From contig CAMCBU010000009.1 in assembly GCA_945873095.1 (NCBI GenBank), positions 1 through 64,000 of the forward strand: a DNA stretch of 64,000 nt, in the 5' to 3' direction. The position numbers and the translations under genes were made by a program. The notes beneath the pieces were generated by a model, which was not told the origin of the DNA, ran no database searches, and saw nothing but the letters and a program-made list of their open reading frames with translations. Positions 22,305-61,236 of the stretch are shown here, in pieces (position 1 is the first letter of the stretch; the number at the start of each line of letters is the position of its first letter). Source of the stretch: Klebsiella pneumoniae (lineage in GTDB: Bacteria; Pseudomonadota; Gammaproteobacteria; Steroidobacterales; Steroidobacteraceae).

Positions 22305-24098
22305 TTATTTCCTGCCTACCTTGAGCACAGCGAGGAAGGCTTCCTGCGGAATCTCGACCGAGCCGACTTGCTTCATGCGCTTCTTGCCTTCTTTTTGTTT
22401 CTCGAGCAGCTTGCGCTTGCGACTGATGTCACCACCGTAGCACTTGGCCAAGACGTTCTTGCGCAGCGCCTTGACGGTCGCCCGCGCGATGACATGCGCG
22501 CCGATCGCCGCCTGTACTGCCACTTCGAACATCTGGCGCGGAATCAACTCCTGCATCTTGTCGACGAGCTCGCGACCGCGCTGATAGGCGCTGTCGCGGT
22601 GCACGATGATCGAGAGCGCATCGACCTTGTCACCGTTGATGAGGATATCGAGCTTGACCAGCGGCGCCGCTTGGAAGTGGCTGAACTCGTAATCGAAACT
22701 CGCATAACCGCGACTGACCGACTTCAAGCGGTCGAAGAAATCGAGCACGACCTCCGCGAGCGGCAAGGCGTACTGCAGCGACACCTGGTTGGCCAGATAC
22801 TGCATCTTTTTCTGCATGCCGCGCTTCTCGGTGCACAGCTGCAAAACGGCACCGACGTAGTCGGGCGGCACGAGGATGTTGGCGATGATGATCGGTTCGC
22901 GGATCTCGGCGAGCTTATTCGGCGGCGGCAGCTTGGCCGGGTTGTCGACATATTCGTTCGTGCCATCGACGAGACCCACCTCGTAGATCACCGTTGGCGC
23001 GCTCGTGATGAGATCGAGGTCGTATTCGCGCTCGAGCCGCTCTTGCACGATGTCCATATGCAAAAGCCCCAAGAATCCGACCCGAAAACCGAAGCCCAAT
23101 GCACCGGAGACTTCCGGCTCGTAGTGCAGCGCCGAATCGTTCAGACGCAGTTTGGCGAGCGCGTCGCGGAAGGACTCATAGTCGTCTGCATTGACCGGGA
23201 ACAGCCCCGCGAACACGCGCGGCTGCACTTGTTTGAAACCCGGCAACGGCGCCGAGCACGGCTTGCCGTCGAGGGTGATGGTGTCGCCAACCGGCGCGCC
23301 GTCGATTTCTTTGACACCGGCAATCACGAAACCCACCTCGCCCGCCGACAACTGGGGCGCTGCGAGGGATTTGGGCGTGAAGCGCCCGAGTTTGTCGACC
23401 TGCCAGATGCGGCCGGTCGACATCACGCGGATTTTGTCACCGATTTTGATCGTGCCGTTGACGACGCGCACGAGCGAGACGACCCCCACGTAGTTGTCGA
23501 ACCACGAATCGATGATGAGCGCTTGCAGAGGCGCTGCCGGGTCGCCCTTCGGTGCGGGAATTCGTTCGACGATCGCCTCGAGCAACTCGGGGACGTTCTC
23601 GCCGGTCTTGGCCGAGACGCGTACCGCATCCTGCGCATCGATCCCGATGATTTCTTCGATCTCGCGGATCACCTTCGGCGGATCGGCGGAGGGCAGATCG
23701 ATCTTGTTGATGACAGGTAGCACCTCGAGACCCTGCTCGATGGCCGTGTAGCAGTTGGCCACGCTCTGTGCTTCGACGCCCTGCGAGGCATCCACCACGA
23801 GCAGGGCGCCGTCACAGGCGGCGAGCGAGCGCGACACCTCGTAGGAAAAGTCGACGTGCCCCGGCGTATCGATGATGTTCAGTTGATAGCGCTGGCCGTT
23901 CTTGGCGTTGTAGTAGAGCGTGACGCTTTGCGCCTTGATGGTGATGCCGCGCTCGCGCTCGAGCGCCATGGAATCGAGCACCTGACTTTGCATCTCACGC
24001 GCATCGAGCCCACCACAGAGTTGGATCAATCGATCGGCGAGCGTGGACTTGCCGTGATCGACGTGGGCGATGATCGAAAAGTTGCGAATGTTCTGCAT
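22305..24098 (-). CDS. lepA: Elongation factor 4 (LepA) back-translocating GTPase
   Basis: LepA is a ribosome-binding GTPase related to EF-G. The 597-residue protein has G1 AHVDHGKST (12-20), the switch region [12 protein letters not shown]3 DTPGHVDF and G4 NKIDLP, followed by the beta-barrel, EF-G III/V-like domains and the LepA-specific C-terminal domain ending with lysine-rich [16 protein letters not shown]. Length and order are standard. It leads the lepA-lepB-rnc-era group and has its own candidate promoter upstream. Confidence 0.98.
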
Positions 24099-24155
24099 CG
24101 GTGACCGGCTGAGCCGCAGGAAGCGGCAAAACGCCCAATTATACCGGAGGCACCG
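24099..24155 (-). promoter_or_regulatory. Candidate promoter and leader upstream of lepA
   Basis: The 57-bp gap between the glutaredoxin-like gene and lepA holds a perfect TATAAT on the minus strand (24138-24143). No convincing -35 is seen at 16-18 bp; GGGTTC is the nearest. The leader contains GCCGC-TTCCT-GCGGC, able to form a small hairpin. A start near 24131 would give a leader of about 32 bases. This could give lepA-lepB-rnc-era their own promoter inside the rpoE run. Confidence 0.45.
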
Positions 24156-24404
24156 TCACCGAACCCGGAAAAGGCGGTGCAGCTCAGTGGCATCGAAGAC
24201 GGTGGTCAGCACCGCCTCACCACCCCAGAGCAAAACCGGAATCTTGAGCCCGTAGCGACGCTGCCACTCCGGGTCTGAGTCCACATCCGCGATCTCGAGC
24301 GGCGGCAGGCTGATCTGCGCGGCGAGAGTCGCAAGCTCCGCCGCAAACTCCTCGCAAAGACCACAGCCCTCTCGCGAGAGCAGCGTCAAACGAGCCTCGT
24401 TCAA
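24156..24404 (-). CDS. Glutaredoxin-like (DUF836) small thiol protein
   Basis: The protein of at most 82 residues opens with a thioredoxin-like strand LTLLSREGCGLCEEF, giving a CGLC active-site pair, and has the cis-proline segment IPVLLW of the fold. It matches the glutaredoxin-like DUF836 family, which commonly follows the sigma-E/rseB cluster or precedes lepA. No ATG is available: the frame starts with TTG at 24404, and a second TTG at 24389, with GAGG five bases upstream, may be the true start. The physiological partner is unknown. Confidence 0.8.
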   Translation of the reverse strand: MNEARLTLLSREGCGLCEEFAAELATLAAQISLPPLEIADVDSDPEWQRRYGLKIPVLLWGGEAVLTTVFDATELHRLFRVR

Positions 24405-24411
24405 GCGGCGC

Positions 24412-25482
24412 TCAAGGCGCAGGCGCCGCCGCCGCCGCGGGCGGTGGCGAATTGAGCGGACGACCCGCTCGTCGCGGTTCGTTGGGGACGGCGCTGCGAG
24501 CAGCCTTCAACTGCGAGGCGATCATTCGCGCCGTTCGTAGCGGAACCTCACCGACGACGACCGCCGGCTTGCCATCGATCACCGTCACCAGCGTCGTCGC
24601 GGCGCCCTGTTGCGGGCCGCCCGCCTGCTGCTGCGCCGCTTCGAGCGTGACAGCGGCACCGATGAACACCGAAACCGAGGCGAGCCCATCCGAAAATACC
24701 AGATGTGAAACCGGCCGATCTGTCCCCGGCAGGGTCTGCTCAACCTGCTGCGTCAGACGAAATCCTTGCGGCAACCGCGTCGTCGTCCACACCTGCCGAA
24801 CCCCTGCGCCACTTTCGGCGCGGATGAATCGCGAATGCATCCGACGGAATCGCTCGGATCCCGTAGGCAAGCGGAAAGCCTCATCCGGAATGCTGCTCAT
24901 GAGGGCGAGACTCGCAAACGCAATACGCTCAAGCACCTCACCCTTCGCGTCATGCAGCTCCGTCTTGAGCGGCATGTGCGAGCGAGCATCGATCCAGACG
25001 CGATAACCGTAGCGGAACGGATCGCGCGGCGTCATCGCAATGAAACGCGCGTCGCGGCCCATCAGGCGCACTGTCTTCACAGGACTGAATTCATAGAGTT
25101 CGGCTTGCTGCTGATCGATACGCGGTAACGTCGGCAGCAACCCGCCCGAGTGCGGTCGCTCTTCTGTCAGCACCATTTCCTGATCCGGCAACACGTAGGA
25201 GACCTCGTTGCCCCGACGCACGAACTCGCGCCCCGACCCATCGAGCGACATCAACCGTTCGCACACCTCACCTTCCCGAACGCGATGCACGATCCGCATC
25301 GCCTCGGCGCGCCCGCCGCGAGTGTGGAAAAAAGTGCCGTCATAGCTGCGCTCGGAGAGCGCCTTGTTCATCCGCTCGAGCCAGTCCTGCGCTTCGCTCG
25401 CGACGGCTCCGAGCGGCAGCGTGGCGGCTGTCAGCGTGGCGAGCCACATCGCTGCCGAACGACGCATATCGAGCGCGATCAT
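24412..25482 (-). CDS. rseB: Sigma-E factor regulatory protein RseB/MucB
   Basis: RseB binds the periplasmic part of the anti-sigma factor RseA and shields it from DegS until mislocalised outer-membrane proteins or LPS are sensed. The 356-residue protein has a signal peptide (about 1-28), an N-terminal LolA-like domain with YDGTFFHTRGG and RIVHRV, and a smaller C-terminal domain, ending in a proline/alanine tail. The ATG at 25482 overlaps the rseA TGA by one base (TGATG) and is preferred over the adjacent TTG. The gene order rpoE-rseA-rseB supports the call. Confidence 0.93.
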   Translation of the reverse strand: MIALDMRRSAAMWLATLTAATLPLGAVASEAQDWLERMNKALSERSYDGTFFHTRGGRAEAMRIVHRVREGEVCERLMSLDGSGREFVRRGNEVSYVLPDQEMVLTEERPHSGGLLPTLPRIDQQQAELYEFSPVKTVRLMGRDARFIAMTPRDPFRYGYRVWIDARSHMPLKTELHDAKGEVLERIAFASLALMSSIPDEAFRLPTGSERFRRMHSRFIRAESGAGVRQVWTTTRLPQGFRLTQQVEQTLPGTDRPVSHLVFSDGLASVSVFIGAAVTLEAAQQQAGGPQQGAATTLVTVIDGKPAVVVGEVPLRTARMIASQLKAARSAVPNEPRRAGRPLNSPPPAAAAAPAP

Positions 25483-26213
25483 CAAAGAATCTCGCCCCGC
25501 GCGGGCGCATCCTCGGTCACGACCGCAGGCTCCATCTGCACCTCCTCGGCGATCGGTGCGCTGCTGATCAGCGTCGAGAGCGTCCCGTGTCGCAGCATCG
25601 GTGCCGCCACGGCACTGTGTGCAGCGACGAAATTGGCCAGTTGCACGGGCGCCGTCACGACGGGCGTGGCGCCCTCTCGAATCGGCGGCGTGACATAACT
25701 CACCGGCTCGCTCGGCTTCATCGCCAAGATGATTTCGTCACCCTCGGCAGCGGCCGCAGGGATGACAACTTCTTCAACGACCTCGGCCGGCGGCGCAGCT
25801 GGATCTTTTGCCGCGGTTGTGACGAGTGAGGCACTTTGCGGGTTACCCCCGAAGAAGATGACCACCGCGCCGACTGCCGCTGCCACGCCAAGGCCACCGG
25901 CCCAACGCAGCGCCGGAGCTCGACCCGCGGCCTGCCGGCCGCTTGCGGCAACGGTTGCGGTGACGGTTGCAGCGGCGACGTCGCTGCGATCGGCCTGCAC
26001 GACCGCGGCGATCTGCGGCGCGAGGTGACGCCGCGCGAGCGGTTCACTGCGCATCACCGCACCGATCAAAGAATAGTTGTCCCAACTGCGACGCAGGTTC
26101 TCGTCCTTTGCGAGGCGCCGCGCGACGAGTTCACACTCGCCCTCCGATAGTGCGCCATCGAACATCGCCGATAGTTGGCTCTCGCGTTCGCTATCAGTCT
26201 GATCTGCACTCAT
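25482..26213 (-). CDS. rseA: Anti-sigma-E factor RseA
   Basis: RseA is a single-pass inner-membrane protein that holds RpoE inactive and is degraded stepwise by DegS and RseP during envelope stress. The 243-residue protein has the cytoplasmic anti-sigma domain LSAMFDGALSEGECELVARRL with WDNYSLIGAVMR (about 14-55), one membrane helix (about 103-121), and a low-complexity periplasmic region rich in V, A, P and E. The ATG overlaps the rpoE stop as ATGA. RseP is also encoded in this window (59863-61236). Confidence 0.92.
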   Translation of the reverse strand: MSADQTDSERESQLSAMFDGALSEGECELVARRLAKDENLRRSWDNYSLIGAVMRSEPLARRHLAPQIAAVVQADRSDVAAATVTATVAASGRQAAGRAPALRWAGGLGVAAAVGAVVIFFGGNPQSASLVTTAAKDPAAPPAEVVEEVVIPAAAAEGDEIILAMKPSEPVSYVTPPIREGATPVVTAPVQLANFVAAHSAVAAPMLRHGTLSTLISSAPIAEEVQMEPAVVTEDAPARGEIL

Positions 26214-26818
26214 CCGATCACCTCGCCGCGGCCTAACCCGCCGTCAAAGACTTCACGCAGTCGGTTATCGATCGCCTCGCGCGCGCGAAAAATACGCGAT
26301 CGGACCGTCCCGACCGGGCAGTCCATGGCGGCGGCGATCTCCTCGTAAGACATCCCTTCGAGTTCACGCAAGACGATGGCGTGGCGCAAATCTTCCGGCA
26401 GCGACTCGATGGCGGCATTCACGGTGGAGCGGATCTCCTCGGTGAGCGCCATGGCCTCGGGTGTCGCGGTGTCCTTCATGCGAGCCTGCAGTTCAGCGGA
26501 CTCTTCGCCTTCGGGGCGATCGAGGTCGTACTCGATGGGACTGCGGTTGCGAGCCGCGATGACGTTCTTGGCCGTATTGATGGCGATGCGATAGAGCCAG
26601 GTGTAGAAGGCGCTGTCGCCGCGAAACCGCGGCAATGCTCGATACGCCTTGATAAATGCTTCCTGGGCAACATCCTCTGCCTCGGCCGGGTCACGCACAT
26701 AACGCATGACGAGTTTCACGACCTTGTGCTGGTAGCGGCGCACCAACGCATCGAAAGCCCCCGCATCGCCCCGCTGGGCAAGCTGCACGAGGCTCAAATC
26801 GCTGGCTTCACTGCTCAT
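26210..26818 (-). CDS. rpoE: RNA polymerase sigma factor RpoE (AlgU-type, ECF)
   Basis: This is the envelope-stress sigma factor of the RpoE/AlgU group. The 202-residue protein has region 2 (about 25-90, with DAEDVAQEAF-like sequence EAEDVAQEAFIKAYRALPRF and FYTWLYRIAINTAKN) and region 4 (about 150-190, with MSYEEIAAAMDCPVGTVRSRIFRAREA). The ATG at 26818 was chosen over a longer frame because GGAGAG lies about eight bases upstream and the N-terminus then matches AlgU-type proteins. A sigma-E-like promoter lies upstream, implying autoregulation. Confidence 0.96.
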   Translation of the reverse strand: MSSEASDLSLVQLAQRGDAGAFDALVRRYQHKVVKLVMRYVRDPAEAEDVAQEAFIKAYRALPRFRGDSAFYTWLYRIAINTAKNVIAARNRSPIEYDLDRPEGEESAELQARMKDTATPEAMALTEEIRSTVNAAIESLPEDLRHAIVLRELEGMSYEEIAAAMDCPVGTVRSRIFRAREAIDNRLREVFDGGLGRGEVIG

Positions 26819-26872
26819 GCCGGAGCTCTCCGCCACAAGCGCTGGCACCGGCTGTGCACACATCGCGTGGGA

Positions 26873-26899
26873 GTAGACAGAGAGACTTCACAAAAGTTC
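26873..26899 (-). promoter_or_regulatory. Candidate sigma-E promoter for rpoE-rseA-rseB
   Basis: On the minus strand GAACTT (26899-26894) is followed, 16 bases later, by TCTAC (26877-26873). RpoE/AlgU promoters are typically GAACTT, a 16-17 bp spacer, then TCTGA. The -35 is exact and the -10 matches its first three bases. It lies in the 136-bp gap upstream of rpoE and would give a 5' leader of about 48 bases. Confidence 0.55.
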
Positions 26900-26954
26900 G
26901 CAAGGGACGCCGTTCGGGGGGATATTTTGTCCGCAGTGTACCCATCCGGCGCGC

Positions 26955-27206
26955 TCACACGCCTCGAATGGACTGCAGCAGGGCCGCGAGATCCGCATCC
27001 GCATGCATCTCGCCGGCAATCAGATGACGCACGAGCTCCGGGTCCTGCCATTGCAGCAGCGCCTCGAACCGCGCGAGTTCCTCGGCCGTCGCCCTCGGGC
27101 CGTGCCGCTCGAGCCACCGCTCGAGCAACACATCGAGTTCCCTCATGCCCCGCCGACACATCCACCGCAGGCGGCCTAATCTCGCCTCGGCGGACACGGC
27201 ACTCAT
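26955..27206 (-). CDS. sdhE: FAD assembly factor SdhE (SdhAF2 family)
   Basis: SdhE helps attach FAD covalently to the flavoprotein subunit SdhA. The 83-residue all-helical protein carries the RGMRE form of the RGxxE motif (residues 19-23, after RWMCR) that is essential in the family, and ends in a helical region with LLQWQDPELVRHLIAGE. The ATG at 27206 gives the usual length; the frame stays open upstream inside sdhB, but those residues have no family features. It lies 26 bp after sdhB, at the end of the SDH operon. Confidence 0.93.
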   Translation of the reverse strand: MSAVSAEARLGRLRWMCRRGMRELDVLLERWLERHGPRATAEELARFEALLQWQDPELVRHLIAGEMHADADLAALLQSIRGV

Positions 27207-27232
27207 GGCAGCGGGCGCGGACGATGCGCGGT

Positions 27233-28021
27233 TCAGAGGTGCTCGCGCTCGACCATCATCCGCTTGATCTCGGCGATGGCCTTGGCTGGGTTCAGGTCCT
27301 TCGGGCACGCCTCGGTGCAGTTCATGATGGTGTGACAACGATACAGCTTGAAGGGGTCGTTCAGCGCATCGAGCCGCTCGCCAGTCGCATCGTCGCGGCT
27401 GTCGATGATCCATCGATACGCCGCGAGCAAGGCCGCGGGTCCGAGGTAACGATCGCCGTTCCACCAGTAGCTCGGGCAGGAAGTCGAACAACAGGCGCAC
27501 AAGATGCAGGCAGACGGTCGATCGATCTTCTCCTGCTCGTCGGGCGCTTGCAGGCGCTCACGATCCGGCGGCGCCGGCGTCTTCGACTGCAGCCAAGGCT
27601 TGACCGAGGCGTACTGCGCGTAGAACTGCGTCAGATCCGGCACGAGATCTTTGACCACCGGCATATGCGGCAGCGGATAGATCTTGACCTCGCCCTTCAC
27701 CTCATCGCAGCTCTTGGTGCAGGCGAGCGTGTTGGTGCCGTCGATGTTCATCGCGCAGCTGCCGCAGATGCCCTCGCGGCAGGAGCGACGAAAGGTCAAG
27801 CTCGGATCGAGCTCGTTTTTGATCTTGATGAGCGCATCGAGCACCATCGGACCGCAACTGTCCATATCCACTTCGAAGGTATCGATACGCGGATTCTCAC
27901 CCCCGTCGGGATCGTAGCGATACACCTTGAAAGTGCGCACGTTGCTCGAACCGGCGGGTGCTTTGTGCACCTTGCCGTCTTTGTTGATGCGGGAGTTGGC
28001 GGGAAGTCGAAACTCGGCCAT
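27233..28021 (-). CDS. sdhB: Succinate dehydrogenase iron-sulfur subunit
   Basis: SdhB passes electrons from the flavin in SdhA to quinone through three iron-sulfur clusters. The 262-residue protein has the 2Fe-2S ferredoxin motif [11 protein letters not shown] with a later cysteine in TLACTKSC, and the 4Fe-4S/3Fe-4S motifs [33 protein letters not shown]. It starts 18 bp after sdhA. Length is slightly above the E. coli form because of an N-terminal extension and a PPDRERLQ-type linker, as in many alpha- and gammaproteobacteria. Confidence 0.97.
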
Positions 28022-28039
28022 GGTCGAAGATCCTCGAAC

Positions 28040-29824
28040 TCAGTAGGTGCGCGCCTTGGGGGGGATGGGCTCGACATCGCTCGTGAGCGTGTGCAGGTTC
28101 ACCGGACGATAGTCGATGGTGGCCTTGCCCTGGTCATCCACCCAGCAGAGCGTGTGTTTGAGCCAGTGGGTGTCGTCACGATCCTTGAAGTCTTCGCGCG
28201 CGTGCGCACCGCGACTCTCCTTGCGGTTCTCCGCGGATTGCACCGTCGCCACCGCCTGCCCGAGCAGGTTGTCGAGTTCGAGCGTCTCGATGAGATCGGT
28301 GTTCCAGATGAGACCACGATCGCTGGTCTTGACGTCGGCGAAAGAGGCGACGGTATTGGCGAGCTTCTCGCAGCCTTCCTGCAGCGAGCTGCCGGTGCGA
28401 AACACGGCCGCATCCGACTGCATGACCCTCTGCATCTCGAGGCGAATCTGCGCTGTCGTACGCGCACCGTCGGCATTGCGGAATTTGTCGAGTCGCGCGA
28501 TGGCCAGATCGCCCGCATCCTTCGGCAAAGATCGATGCGAGGTACCCGGTTTGACGATCGAGGCGGCGTGACGACCAGCCTCGCGACCGAACACGACGAG
28601 ATCGAGCAAAGAATTCGAACCCAAGCGATTTGCGCCGTGCACCGAGACGCAAGCCGCCTCGCCCACCGCCATCAAGCCCGGCACGACGGAGTTGGGATCG
28701 CCATTTTTCATGGTGACCACCTCGCCGTGGTAGTTACAGGGAATGCCGCCCATGTTGTAGTGCACGGTCGGCAAAACGGGAATCGGCTGCTTGTTGACGT
28801 CGACGCCCGCAAAAATACGGGCCGTCTCGGCGATGCCGGGCAAGCGTTGCTTGATGACATCGGGCCCCAAATGCTCTAAGTGCAGATGGATGTGATCGGC
28901 ATCTTTACCGACGCCGCGGCCTTCACGGATCTCGATCGTCATTGATCGCGAGACCACATCGCGAGAAGCCAGATCCTTGGCGTTCGGCGCGTAGCGCTCC
29001 ATGAAGCGCTCGCCACGCGAGTTGGTGAGGTAACCGCCCTCGCCGCGCGAGCCTTCGGTAATCAAGCAGCCGGCACCGTAGATGCCGGTGGGGTGGAACT
29101 GCACAAACTCCATGTCCTGCAACGGCAACCCGGCGCGCAGCGCCATGCCGCCACCGTCACCCGTGCAGGTGTGCGCCGAGGTGCAGGAGAAGTACGCGCG
29201 ACCGTAACCGCCTGTGGCGAGGATCACGAGGTGAGCGCGGAAACGATGGATCGTGCCCTCGGCCAGATTCAGCGCGACGACACCGCGGCACTCGCCGTTC
29301 TCCATGATCAGATCGATCGCAAAGTATTCGATGAAGAATTCTGCTTCGTTCTTGATCGACTGCTGGTAGAGCGTGTGCAGCATCGCGTGCCCGGTTCGGT
29401 CGGCGGCGGCACAGGTGCGCTGCGCGATACCCTTGCCATACTGCGTCGTCATCCCGCCGAAGGGACGCTGATAGATCCGGCCATCCGGCGTGCGCGAGAA
29501 CGGCACCCCGTAGTGCTCGAGTTCGATGACCGCCGCCGGAGCCTCTTTGCACATGAACTCGATCGCATCCTGGTCACCGAGCCAGTCGGAGCCCTTGATG
29601 GTGTCGTAGAAATGGTAGCGCCAGTCATCCTCGCCCATGTTGCCGAGCGCTGCGGAGATACCGCCCTGCGCGGCAACCGTGTGACTGCGCGTCGGGAATA
29701 CTTTGGTGATACAGGCAGTCGAGAGACCCGCCTCGGCAAGACCCAGCGTCGATCGCAAACCGGCGCCACCGGCGCCGACGACGACGACGTCGTAGGTGTG
29801 ATCAATGAAAGAGTAAGCAGTCAT
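28040..29824 (-). CDS. sdhA: Succinate dehydrogenase flavoprotein subunit
   Basis: SdhA oxidises succinate to fumarate using covalently bound FAD. The 594-residue protein shows the FAD dinucleotide motif [14 protein letters not shown], the FAD-linked histidine in [18 protein letters not shown], the substrate loop with [15 protein letters not shown]-type residues and R-S-M, and the C-terminal [11 protein letters not shown] motif. It ends 18 bp before sdhB and starts 6 bp after sdhD. Both assembly factors, SdhE and an SdhAF4-like protein, are encoded in the same run. Confidence 0.98.
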
Positions 29825-57422: not shown

Positions 57423-59849
57423 TTAGAACGCTTGTCCGATCGTGAACTGGAATCGCTCTTCCTCGTCCGCAAACTGCACACCGTCACCTTCGAAGGTGTT
57501 GAGTGGCAGCGCATAACTGAAGCGGAAGACACCGAGCGGCGCCAGCCACTGAACGGCAATGCCGGTCGACTGACGCAACTTATCATAGCCGAACTTGTAC
57601 TCGACCGGCGTGATGCCATCCGCACCCGTGAACTTGTAGAAGTCGGTCGTCGAGAACACGTTGCCGATGTCGAAGAAGATCGACGCACGGGCTGACGCGC
57701 GCCACTTCTCAGGCGTCGGAATCAACAGCTCCGCTCGCGCCGTCACCTTCAGGTTGCCACCGTAAGGATTGCCGAAGCTGTCCTTCGGACCGAGACGGCT
57801 CTCACGGAAGCCGCGCACCGTATCCGGACCGCCAGCAAAGAAGTTGCGATACGGCGGCGGCGCCGTGGTGTCGCCGAGCTCTTGGCTGTAGCCCACCTCG
57901 GCGGCGAACGCCATGGTCCAGCTACCGACGATGGGTACGAACTGCAGGTAGTCGTAGTTGGCCGTCGCATACTGCACGTCGCTGAGCGGCAACGCGTAGC
58001 TCAAAGACAAGGAATGACGCATCCCGCGATCGGCAAACAGCGCGCGGTTACGGCTGTCATAGCTCCAACCGATGACGAGGTCATAGCTGTCGAACTGTGT
58101 GGTGTCGAGCGTCGTGCCCGGGATCACGAAGCCCTCGCCGTAATCCTGCTCGGGGACGATCTGCTGACGGTAGTCACCGTTGGATTGCACCCACTGCCGC
58201 GCCTGCTGCGCACTGCCCTCACCCGTGATCAACGAGGATCTTTGGGCCGACAAGCCGATCCGCAAACCCTGGAACTCCGTGATCGGATAGCCGTAGTCGA
58301 CGCCGATGGAGAGCGACTCAGACGAGAAGTCGGACGAGGCGGACACGAACTGCGTCACGTCGCGATACGTGAAAGACAAGGTGCGCGCGACGCCATCGAT
58401 ATTGGTGTACGGGTCGGTGTGCGAAATGCCGTAGACCTTGGAATATCGACCCGAGTTCAAATCGAGCGAGACGCGCTGACCGGTGCCGAGAAAATTACTG
58501 TCGGCATAGTTACCGTTGAGGATGAAGGACTGCGACTCCGAGTAGCCGATACCGCCGCCCAACTGTGCCGACGGACCTTCCTTGATCTCGAACTCCACAT
58601 CCACGAGATCCGCGGATCCCGGCACGGGCTTCGTCTCGGACTCGACCTTCTCGATATACGGCAGACGCTGTAGACGCTGTTTGGAGCGCTCAACGAGCAT
58701 GTTCGAGAGCCAACCGCCTTCGAGCTGACGCATCTCGCGACGCAGCACTTCGTCGTTGATCTTGGTCACGCCGTTGAAGACGATGTGCCGCACGTAAACA
58801 CGATTGCCCGGTTCGACGAAGAACGTGATACCGACCTCGTTCTTGCCTTCGATCGGTGTGGGCACGGGATCGACTTTCGCGAACGCGTAGCCTTCGAGAC
58901 CGAGTCGGTTCTGCAACAGCTCCTGCGTACTCGTGATGTCTTTCTTGGAATAGGTCTCGCCCGACTTAACGAGCAAATAATTCTTGAGTTCCGACTCGGG
59001 CACGACGAACGTACCCGCAAGCTTGATTTCACCGAGCTTGAAGACCTCACCCTCATTCACGTTCACGGTGATGAAGATGTCGTCCTTCTCGGGCGCGATC
59101 GCAACCTGCGTGGACTCGATATCGAAGTTCGCATAGCCGCGATCCATGTAATAGGAGCGCAGCTTCTCGAGATCACCCTGTAAAGATTCACGCGAGTACC
59201 GATCGTCCTGACGATACCAAGACAACCAGTTCGGCGTCTTGAGCTCGAAATCTTCGAGAACGTCTTCCTCGGTGTACGTTTTGTTGCCAACCAGGTTGAT
59301 CTGGCGGATGCGGGCGCGCTTGCCTTCTTTGATATCGATCTTCACGCGTACACGGTTATCGGCCAACTCCTCGACTTCGGTCGCGATCCGCACCGCGTAT
59401 TTGCCGCGGCTGAAATACTGATCGGTGAGGTATTGCTTGACGTCCTCGAGCACCGAGCGATCGAAGGTCTTGCCGGTGGCCAGACCCACGTTGCGCAGGC
59501 TCTTGGTCAGATCCTCGGTCTTGATGTCCTTGTTGCCCTTGAGCTCGAAGCTCTCGATCGAGGGGCGCTCCAGCACGGCGACGATCAACGTGCCCTCTTC
59601 GAAGCGCAGTTCGACATCACGGAAAAAACCGGTGTCGTAGAGCGCGCGTATCGCCTCGCGCACGCGCTGCTGCGTGATGCGATCACCGATGTTCACGGGC
59701 AGGTAGTTGTAAACCGTACCCTCCGAAACTCGTTGCAGGCCCTCGACGCGGATATTGTCGACCCGCAGTGTGGGCGGGTCTTGAGCCATCGCAGCGGTCG
59801 CTACGATCGAGAAAAGCACACCGACGATCAATCTGGAGAAAAGCGACAA
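57423..59849 (-). CDS. bamA: Outer membrane protein assembly factor BamA
   Basis: BamA is the core of the BAM complex that inserts beta-barrel proteins into the outer membrane. The protein has a signal peptide ending AMA-Q, five POTRA domains (about 20-420) and an Omp85 barrel including VRGFRESRLGP and an FSIGQAF-like end (FQFTIGQAF). The longest frame starts at an ATG (59888) that overlaps rseP by 26 bases. The TTG at 59849 has CAGGGG upstream and gives a cleaner signal peptide (MSLFSRLIVGVLFSIVATA), so it is preferred; length is then 808. Confidence 0.96.
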   Translation of the reverse strand: MSLFSRLIVGVLFSIVATAAMAQDPPTLRVDNIRVEGLQRVSEGTVYNYLPVNIGDRITQQRVREAIRALYDTGFFRDVELRFEEGTLIVAVLERPSIESFELKGNKDIKTEDLTKSLRNVGLATGKTFDRSVLEDVKQYLTDQYFSRGKYAVRIATEVEELADNRVRVKIDIKEGKRARIRQINLVGNKTYTEEDVLEDFELKTPNWLSWYRQDDRYSRESLQGDLEKLRSYYMDRGYANFDIESTQVAIAPEKDDIFITVNVNEGEVFKLGEIKLAGTFVVPESELKNYLLVKSGETYSKKDITSTQELLQNRLGLEGYAFAKVDPVPTPIEGKNEVGITFFVEPGNRVYVRHIVFNGVTKINDEVLRREMRQLEGGWLSNMLVERSKQRLQRLPYIEKVESETKPVPGSADLVDVEFEIKEGPSAQLGGGIGYSESQSFILNGNYADSNFLGTGQRVSLDLNSGRYSKVYGISHTDPYTNIDGVARTLSFTYRDVTQFVSASSDFSSESLSIGVDYGYPITEFQGLRIGLSAQRSSLITGEGSAQQARQWVQSNGDYRQQIVPEQDYGEGFVIPGTTLDTTQFDSYDLVIGWSYDSRNRALFADRGMRHSLSLSYALPLSDVQYATANYDYLQFVPIVGSWTMAFAAEVGYSQELGDTTAPPPYRNFFAGGPDTVRGFRESRLGPKDSFGNPYGGNLKVTARAELLIPTPEKWRASARASIFFDIGNVFSTTDFYKFTGADGITPVEYKFGYDKLRQSTGIAVQWLAPLGVFRFSYALPLNTFEGDGVQFADEEERFQFTIGQAF

Positions 59850-59862
59850 GTGAGACCCCTGG

Positions 59863-61236
59863 TCAGCCGAACTGCCGAGCGAAATCATTGAAGAGCGCGA
59901 TGCCCATGAGCATCACGAGCAAGGCGACACCGACCTGCTGACCGATGGCCTGCAAGCGATCCGACAGTGGCGAGCCGCGTACCCACTCGGCCAACTGATA
60001 GACGATCTGACCGCCATCGAGGATGGGAATCGGCAACAGATTCAGAAAACCGAGGCTGAGCGAAATCACCACCAGAAACCCCAAGAACTCGGCCAGCCCG
60101 CTGCGAGCAGAGTCGCCAGCGTATTCAGCGATCGAGATCGGGCCCGAAAGATTCTTCAAAGAAACCTGACCGAAGATCATGCGCCAGAACATCTTGGCCT
60201 GCAGCACGGTCATATCCCAAGCGCGCACACTCGCCTCAGCCACGGCCTCGAGCGGTCCGAAACGCACGACCTCGATCATCGAGGCGGGCCACGGCGGCGG
60301 TGGCGGGGTCTGGATACGGATACGACCGACTTCGCGTCCCTCGATCAGATCAGCGGTGGTCGTCACCACCGTGCTGCCCTGCACGCCCGCTCGCTCGTAG
60401 ATCACGGAAAAGGCGCGATTGGGGCGTACCGAGATCGCTTCGACGAGCATCGGGAAATCCGTGATCTCGACGCCGTCGACGGCGACGATGCGATCACCCG
60501 AGAGCAAACCCGCCACATCGGCAGGACCACCAGCATCCGCCTTGCCGATCACCGCAGGAATCGGCGGCGACCAGAAACGCATACCGATCCCGGGCAGCAG
60601 CGCCGCGGGCTCCGTCAAGGCGCGGCGTACTTCCGGATCGTCAATCCGCAGTTGCAGATCGCGCAACTCAGCGTCGCCGCGTCGCACCCGCAAGTCGATC
60701 GGCCCACTCTCGCTCATGCCTTCGATCAAACCGAACAGCACGTCCGTCTGGTTGCTCACCGACTTGCCTTCGACGGCGACGATCACATCGTTGCTCTGCA
60801 AACCGGCTTGGGCCGCGACGGAATCTGCCACCACGCGACCGACGACCGGTCGCACTTCGGGCGAACCGGACACCCAGAGCATCGCGGCGAGCACGATGAT
60901 GGCAAAGAAAATATTGAAGGCAGGACCTGCGAGCAGCACGAGGATGCGCTCCCACGGCTTCTTGCGCGTGAACGAGCGTGCGAGATCCTCGGGCGGCACC
61001 GGGCCTTCGCGCTCATCGAGCAGTTTCACGTAGCCGCCCAAAGGCCACATCGCAAAGACGTATTCCGTGCGATCGGCGCCCGCGGTCTTCTTCCAGAGCG
61101 GTGTGCCGAAACCGACCGAGAATCGCAGCACTTTGAAACCGAGCTTGCGGGCGACCCAATAGTGACCAAACTCGTGGATGGTCACGAGCAGGCTGACGGC
61201 TACGATGAAGCCGGCTAAGGTCCAAATGAGATCCAT
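59863..61236 (-). CDS. rseP: Site-2 protease RseP (sigma-E pathway)
   Basis: RseP cuts the transmembrane part of RseA after DegS, releasing RpoE. The 457-residue inner-membrane metalloprotease has the zinc motif HEFGH (residues 21-25) in the first helix, two periplasmic PDZ domains (about 125-215 and 220-310), and the second active-site motif NLLPIPILDGG in a C-terminal helix. It lies between dxr and bamA, the usual order. Its substrate RseA is encoded at 25482-26213. Confidence 0.97.
   Translation of the reverse strand: MDLIWTLAGFIVAVSLLVTIHEFGHYWVARKLGFKVLRFSVGFGTPLWKKTAGADRTEYVFAMWPLGGYVKLLDEREGPVPPEDLARSFTRKKPWERILVLLAGPAFNIFFAIIVLAAMLWVSGSPEVRPVVGRVVADSVAAQAGLQSNDVIVAVEGKSVSNQTDVLFGLIEGMSESGPIDLRVRRGDAELRDLQLRIDDPEVRRALTEPAALLPGIGMRFWSPPIPAVIGKADAGGPADVAGLLSGDRIVAVDGVEITDFPMLVEAISVRPNRAFSVIYERAGVQGSTVVTTTADLIEGREVGRIRIQTPPPPPWPASMIEVVRFGPLEAVAEASVRAWDMTVLQAKMFWRMIFGQVSLKNLSGPISIAEYAGDSARSGLAEFLGFLVVISLSLGFLNLLPIPILDGGQIVYQLAEWVRGSPLSDRLQAIGQQVGVALLVMLMGIALFNDFARQFG

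Follow-up and report, generated by a model that had tools for sequence, protein, structure and literature searches.

Promoters of rpoE from three described systems provide the closest comparison for the locus reported here. First, the rpoE promoter of Shewanella oneidensis MR-1 is GAACTTTTTCAAAGTACGCGAGTCTAC, with the form GAACTT-N15-GTCTAC; a start mapped by primer extension, raised rseA transcription with extra rpoE, and autoregulation are reported for it (PMC4336711). Second, Escherichia coli rpoE has six promoters according to a review in which P6 (formerly P2) is the autoregulated one, with a start at -75, and in which the promoters upstream of P6 are served by other sigma factors (PMC8103513). 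The E. coli K-12 record itself carries GGAACTT-N16-TCTAA at -109 of rpoE. Third, for the rpoE-rseA-mucD promoter of Xanthomonas campestris and Stenotrophomonas maltophilia, a -35 GAACTT and a -10 TCTCA, given as the Xanthomonas consensus, are reported before rpoE in Stenotrophomonas; this promoter, a proposed sigma-E regulon member, was put to a reporter test (PMC4229105).

How does the present locus compare? The window, meaning the whole stretch of 64,000 nucleotides that was analyzed, has the same boxes, spacing and -10 as the Shewanella promoter, again before rpoE-rseA-rseB. The surroundings differ: in Shewanella rseC comes next, whereas in the window a DUF836 gene and lepA lie past rseB and sdh genes lie upstream. 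E. coli and the window are alike in having GAACTT, 16 nt and TCTA before the same three genes, but the last base of the -10 is A in E. coli and C in the window, and E. coli has a divergent nadB and the leader gene rseD upstream of rpoE. In Xanthomonas and Stenotrophomonas mucD is inside the operon, whereas the window's genome has a degP-type lipoprotein gene elsewhere, preceded by a separate copy of the motif. Feedback is the established reading for rpoE, and the promoter described here falls within known sigma-E biology.

A predicted sigma-E promoter before rpoE

The first-pass annotation of this DNA had placed GAACTT, 16 bp and TCTAC, with an exact -35, on the minus strand in the gap before rpoE. 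Both the string and its position are confirmed. On the minus strand, positions 26899-26873 carry GAACTT TTGTGAAGTCTCTCTG TCTAC, with an exact -35 and a 16-nt spacer; the site lies in the 139 nt that separate the stop codon of sdhE (26958) from the rpoE ATG (26818) and ends 54 nt 5′ of that ATG. The -35 element (26894..26899, minus strand) is assigned from its sequence and its conservation before rpoE. The -10 element, GTCTAC (26873..26878, minus strand), is identical in the Shewanella rpoE promoter and is usually GTCTAT or GTCTAC in relatives. The sigma-E transcript would be expected to start at 26865..26870 (minus strand), which is 3–6 nt 3′ of the -10 by the criterion given in PMC10880074, or 8 nt 3′ of it when the start of E. 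coli P6 at -75 is set against the position of the site in K-12.

The gene downstream is a genuine rpoE. It occupies 26210..26818 on the minus strand and matches the RpoE equivalog profile TIGR02939 with 277.2 bits (cut-off 236.15). Its product shares 62% identity with the RpoE of E. coli across 188 positions, and the stretch MDCPVGTVRSRIFRAREAIDN, which we take to be the -35-reading part of the sigma factor, is identical in the two proteins. The closest named relative found, the metagenome-assembled Nevskiaceae bacterium ZLKRG17, has an RpoE that is 86% identical; the RpoE encoded on CAMAQZ010000044.1 is 77% identical to that of the window. The genes rseA (25482..26213, minus strand; PF03872, 41.7 bits, cut-off 24), which overlaps rpoE by 4 nt, and rseB (24412..25485, minus strand; PF03888, 179.8 bits, cut-off 22.3) follow. 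These two match the Pfam models RseA_N and MucB_RseB above cut-off, and the NCBIfam RseA and RseB equivalog profiles below their cut-offs.

The unit probably extends beyond rseB into the DUF836 gene and lepA. The glutaredoxin-like DUF836 gene (24156..24404, minus strand; PF05768, 57.4 bits, cut-off 26) begins 7 nt past rseB and occupies the place of E. coli rseC, where the order is rpoE-rseA-rseB-rseC-lepA-lepB; it is probably co-transcribed with the sigma-E unit. The gene lepA (22305..24098, minus strand; TIGR01393, 976.8 bits) is a possible distal member, and past it, on the same strand, are genes taken by eye for lepB, rnc and era. Upstream, sdhE (26958..27206, minus strand; PF03937, 70.0 bits, cut-off 27) is the last gene of the sdh unit. 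Of three proteins from the sdhE-rpoE gap of relatives, one matched the YgfX model PF07254, with 17.2 bits, below the cut-off of 27.3.

The site is almost certainly an autoregulatory sigma-E promoter (RpoE/AlgU, ECF02-type) of the rpoE-rseA-rseB unit, judging from sequence comparison. We infer the start site, its sigma-E dependence, its induction by stress and the role of a second upstream element, and the events would run as follows. Envelope stress would lead to destruction of RseA and thereby free sigma-E, which would bring RNA polymerase to GAACTT-N16-TCTAC, with a start at about 26865-26870. The transcript would yield more sigma-E together with its inhibitors RseA and RseB, so that the positive loop would carry its own brake. 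Basal transcription would probably come from the second element, at 26935-26943, acting as a housekeeping promoter.

Conservation of the element

The element is conserved before rpoE far beyond the window. The rpoE gene was found in 51 of 60 genomes. The loci of 49 of the 50 relatives were taken, with G042 excluded because its rpoE begins at a contig end; L044 was also excluded, having only 14 nt upstream, which leaves 49 loci (the window and 48 relatives). A plain rule, GAACTT followed after 15–18 nt by TC within 300 nt upstream of rpoE, finds a site in 44 of these 49 and in none when the pattern is reversed. In a separate collection of 80 named loci it finds 45, against one for the reversed control; at least four contigs are common to both sets, and two of the 45 sites lie ~265 nt away. 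The plain form is thus absent from five of the 49 loci and 35 of the 80. The best-scoring sites of the 49 loci fall in one place and have nearly one spacing; the exceptions in place are L017, L022 and L041. The boxes and the length of the spacer are kept among relatives, and the sequence of the spacer diverges. Moreover, in many relatives sdhE ends ~370–700 nt before rpoE, and the sigma-E element still adjoins rpoE.

What is the usual form of the promoter in this order? The search behind an alignment of 79 sites fixed GAACTT and TC and left the other columns free. In this alignment 78 sites have a G immediately ahead of TC. The two positions after TC are T in 60 and A in 63, respectively, and the last position is T in 49, A in 16, C in 12 and G in two. 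The aligned sites point to GAACTT-N15-GTCTAT/C as the usual form of the rpoE promoter for the order. Since GTCTAT/C is the usual form, GTCTAC is, on this comparison, a standard rather than a poor -10 in this lineage.

The annotation had also proposed that the promoter makes the rpoE unit self-activating. This proposal is supported by the comparison, through the 44 of 49 loci, the identity of MDCPVGTVRSRIFRAREAIDN and the described Shewanella promoter. A well-known feedback loop is thereby extended to an uncultured gammaproteobacterial lineage, on evidence from relatives that is far stronger than a single match. The promoter is ordinary in kind, though very well conserved here. The comparison also provides a consensus for rpoE promoters of the order and points to a degP-type lipoprotein gene and to rpoH as likely further targets; side findings, considered below, are possible starts with almost no leader and the overlap with CIRCE at rpoH.

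Alternative readings of the element

Could the promoter be real and self-activation nevertheless be quantitatively minor, with read-through from sdh and an upstream element dominating? This is compatible with an autoregulatory promoter, and we consider it unlikely but worth weighing. The gap between sdhE and rpoE showed no terminator in a simple scan, so sdh read-through into rpoE is possible. There is also a second conserved element, GGGTACACT (26935..26943, minus strand), a probable housekeeping (sigma-70-type) -10 picked out by conservation within the genus. Its window form is TACACT at 26940-26935, and its form in the genus is often GGTTACACTG. Of the 21 genus loci, the window included, 20 have TANACT in the 120 nt that precede the -35, compared with none for the reversed pattern and a mean of 0.74 in shuffled sequence. 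Position 3 of TANACT is variable and the remainder is fixed, as in a housekeeping -10. A consensus scan of 24000-28500 gave no sigma-70-type promoter and no -35 box for this distal promoter; an extended -10 promoter needs no -35 box. The second element is probably a housekeeping promoter for basal rpoE expression, which would resemble E. coli, where further promoters lie upstream of the autoregulated proximal one. The earlier claim that rpoE is transcribed separately from the SDH operon is therefore unproven, given a gap with no terminator found and a second, probably housekeeping element in it. Against a minor role for self-activation, the sigma-E element is more widely conserved than the second one, for which loci outside the genus show no enrichment, and it stays by rpoE in the many relatives whose sdhE is hundreds of nucleotides (~370–700) away. 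About ten other relatives have elements resembling TGnTAGAAT ~46–70 nt upstream of the -35. These are suggestive by eye but were set aside, since TANANT shows no enrichment outside the genus (24 of 63 loci versus 22 of 63 reversed).

The element could also be conserved for binding by another regulator, or be read by an ECF sigma factor other than RpoE. Conservation alone does not name the binding protein. The boxes and spacing, however, match sigma-E promoters of E. coli and Shewanella, the -35 and the TC core match those given for Xanthomonas and Stenotrophomonas, and the recognition stretch is identical to that of E. coli RpoE. A reader other than RpoE is thus very improbable, and an autoregulatory sigma-E promoter is the preferred reading.

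As a string, the motif is unremarkable. GAACTT-N15-18-TCTRM has one match in the 64-kb window, where 0.15 are expected, and 14 of 100 shuffled windows have at least one. A similar pattern has 11 matches genome-wide versus 12 for the reversed control. With one mismatch allowed, the GTCTAY form has 13 matches in the window's genome versus 10 reversed, and of the 13 the window site alone is exact. Across the 60 genomes, the window's included, the strict form GAACTTN15GTCTAY has 48 matches versus 45 reversed, and GGAACTTN15GTC is rarer in most genomes than its reversed control. A reversed string is a rough control with a different dinucleotide make-up. Genome-wide motif counts were rejected as evidence because forward matches are not clearly above these controls. 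The placement of the strict matches is another matter: 31 of the 48 stand immediately before rpoE, as probably does a 32nd, at a contig end in G042. The string by itself is within chance, and its place is beyond chance, since chance predicts ~1.3e-4 matches for a single strand of such a 139-nt gap and the element is conserved there across the order. Thus, although the window shuffles, the genome counts and the lack of a detected terminator would suit a chance string in a GC-rich genome, with rpoE transcribed from elsewhere by sdh read-through or from the upstream element, this is the least probable reading of all, given how few matches such a gap should hold and the conservation of boxes and spacer length across diverged spacers.

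Further candidate targets of sigma-E

A scan of the genome for the motif before other envelope genes had been suggested with the original annotation. The counts gave no clear excess over controls, whereas a degP-type gene and rpoH do carry the motif. The suggested occurrence before bamA did not hold up. In the window bamA lies at 57423-59888, preceded by an M50 protease gene (RseP-like), and no site was found up to 1300 nt upstream of bamA in 26 loci: the best score was 10.5 and that of the window's own locus 3.4, compared with 11.5 for the best reversed score and 24.6 for the rpoE site of the window. The other four of the 30 loci are fragments whose bamA start was judged missing (L254, L255, L256 and L259), and the scan did not include them. 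With no site in the 26 loci, bamA was rejected as a sigma-E regulon member.

The degP-type lipoprotein gene is likely a further sigma-E target, judging from the sequence upstream of it. In the window's genome the gene is at G000:C6:74290-75642 (minus strand; TIGR02037, 470.7 bits), and TGAACTT-N15-GTCTAG stands directly upstream (L062:1501-1527; G000:C6:75858-75884, minus strand), overlapping, by eye, the last codons of the upstream gene. The site is present in 17 of 21 loci examined, from the window's genome and 16 other genus members; by our own reading the remaining four are truncated or are other paralogues, and the G022 locus was found via the motif itself. The -10 is GTCTAG in 15 of the 17, GTCAAG in G002 and GTCTAC in G022. 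GAACTT is retained in the loci with a spacer one base longer (G004, G007 and G014). The -10 GTCTAG apparently overlaps both the upstream stop codon and the start of an AGGGAG that resembles a ribosome-binding site.

Sixteen strict matches in the 60 genomes are not assigned to rpoE. Two of them precede degP-type lipoprotein genes (G022 and G033, by eye). Two others come from members of a single genus (L158 and L159, from G044 and G057) and lie 28 and 17 nt, respectively, ahead of a DUF4124-like gene, a name resting on a Pfam match of 39.9 bits for G044 and assigned by eye for G057. The close relatives G010, G015 and G009 have the motif ~32 nt before a gene (L153, L154 and L155); the G010 protein, the one scanned of the three, has weak TerB and DUF533 matches, both below cut-off. 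A match in G035 is by a gene that resembles an M48 peptidase by eye and yields a 90-residue fragment with no Pfam match, and one in G058 is by a gene resembling a secreted hydrolase, also by eye. Six of the remaining seven appear to be chance matches, as they fall within long open frames on one strand or the other. The last, in G038, is 50 nt before a tolQ-like gene (by eye) and also within an open frame on the other strand.

A likely sigma-E-type promoter overlapping CIRCE at rpoH

A CIRCE operator (TTAGCACTC-N9-GAGTGCTAA) precedes rpoH in all 27 loci that have upstream sequence (L203-L229), when up to two mismatches in 18 are allowed and the search reaches 450 nt from the matched rpoH; the fragment L230 is without the region. 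GAACTT, with up to one mismatch, lies 9–10 nt before CIRCE in 18 of the 27 loci. It is exact in nine, among them the window's own genome, where the region is at L211:673-721 (G000:C2). At 95 other offsets the same test yields 0.17 loci on average and never more than one. CTC closes the first half of CIRCE, and the three bases that follow it, which are free in CIRCE, are NAA in 21 of 27 loci, giving TCNAA inside the operator. The promoter-like sequence is GAACTT-N17-TCGAA in the window's genome, and GAAC(T/C)T keeps a fixed distance to CIRCE among the loci. These sites score lower than those at rpoE (5.7 in the window's genome, 14.0 at best) because the -10 is without the G of the rpoE form.

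From these comparisons, GAACTT-N16/17-TCNAA at rpoH is likely a sigma-E-type promoter with its -10 within the HrcA operator, and the overlap is probably functional, a reading we hold with reasonable though not high confidence. Sigma-E control of rpoH would have precedents: in E. coli it acts through the promoter P3 (PMC8103513), and it has been predicted in Shewanella (PMC4336711). No description of a sigma-E -10 overlapping CIRCE was among the literature matches listed in a limited search. If the overlap is functional, the heat-shock repressor HrcA could gate an envelope-stress promoter at rpoH.

Possible nearly leaderless starts

What would these promoters mean for translation? With a start 3–6 or 8 nt past the -10, the stress mRNAs of rpoE and the degP-type gene would be almost leaderless. 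In the window, an in-frame upstream ATG (26861..26863, minus strand) lies 9 nt past the -10; it is a possible almost leaderless start and would give RpoE a 15-residue N-terminal extension. Among genus loci, an in-frame ATG lies within 20 nt past the -10 of rpoE in 10 of 21, and an out-of-frame one in three. When the loci are grouped by eye into ten clades and a single representative is kept per clade, the number is four, compared with a shuffled mean of 0.49; four was reached in two of 5000 shuffles. In loci from outside the genus, early ATGs at rpoE show no preference for the reading frame (seven in frame versus seven out). At the degP-type gene, an in-frame ATG lies 6–15 nt past the -10 in all 17 loci (11 nt in the window's genome), and in five of the 17 an out-of-frame ATG is present within 25 nt as well.

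We tentatively suggest, with more doubt than confidence, that in this genus the sigma-E promoter abuts the start codon, so that rpoE and degP-type mRNAs made under stress are almost leaderless and the choice of promoter also alters translation. Transcripts begun further upstream would have a full leader and a ribosome-binding site. If so, promoter choice would set how, and from which codon, stress proteins are translated, and some clades would make an N-terminally extended sigma-E. No title on nearly leaderless sigma-E starts was among the literature matches listed.

Conservation of the extension of RpoE as protein was considered and rejected: codon changes among the three closest genomes are mostly non-synonymous (by eye), which gives no hint that its sequence is under selection. 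The leaders are open about equally in the three frames (64, 64 and 62 of 83). In three clades the in-frame ATG is 9 nt past the -10, and the leaders there are 48, 54 and 72 nt long, all multiples of three. In two further clades it is the ATG of rpoE itself that lies 14–15 nt past the -10.
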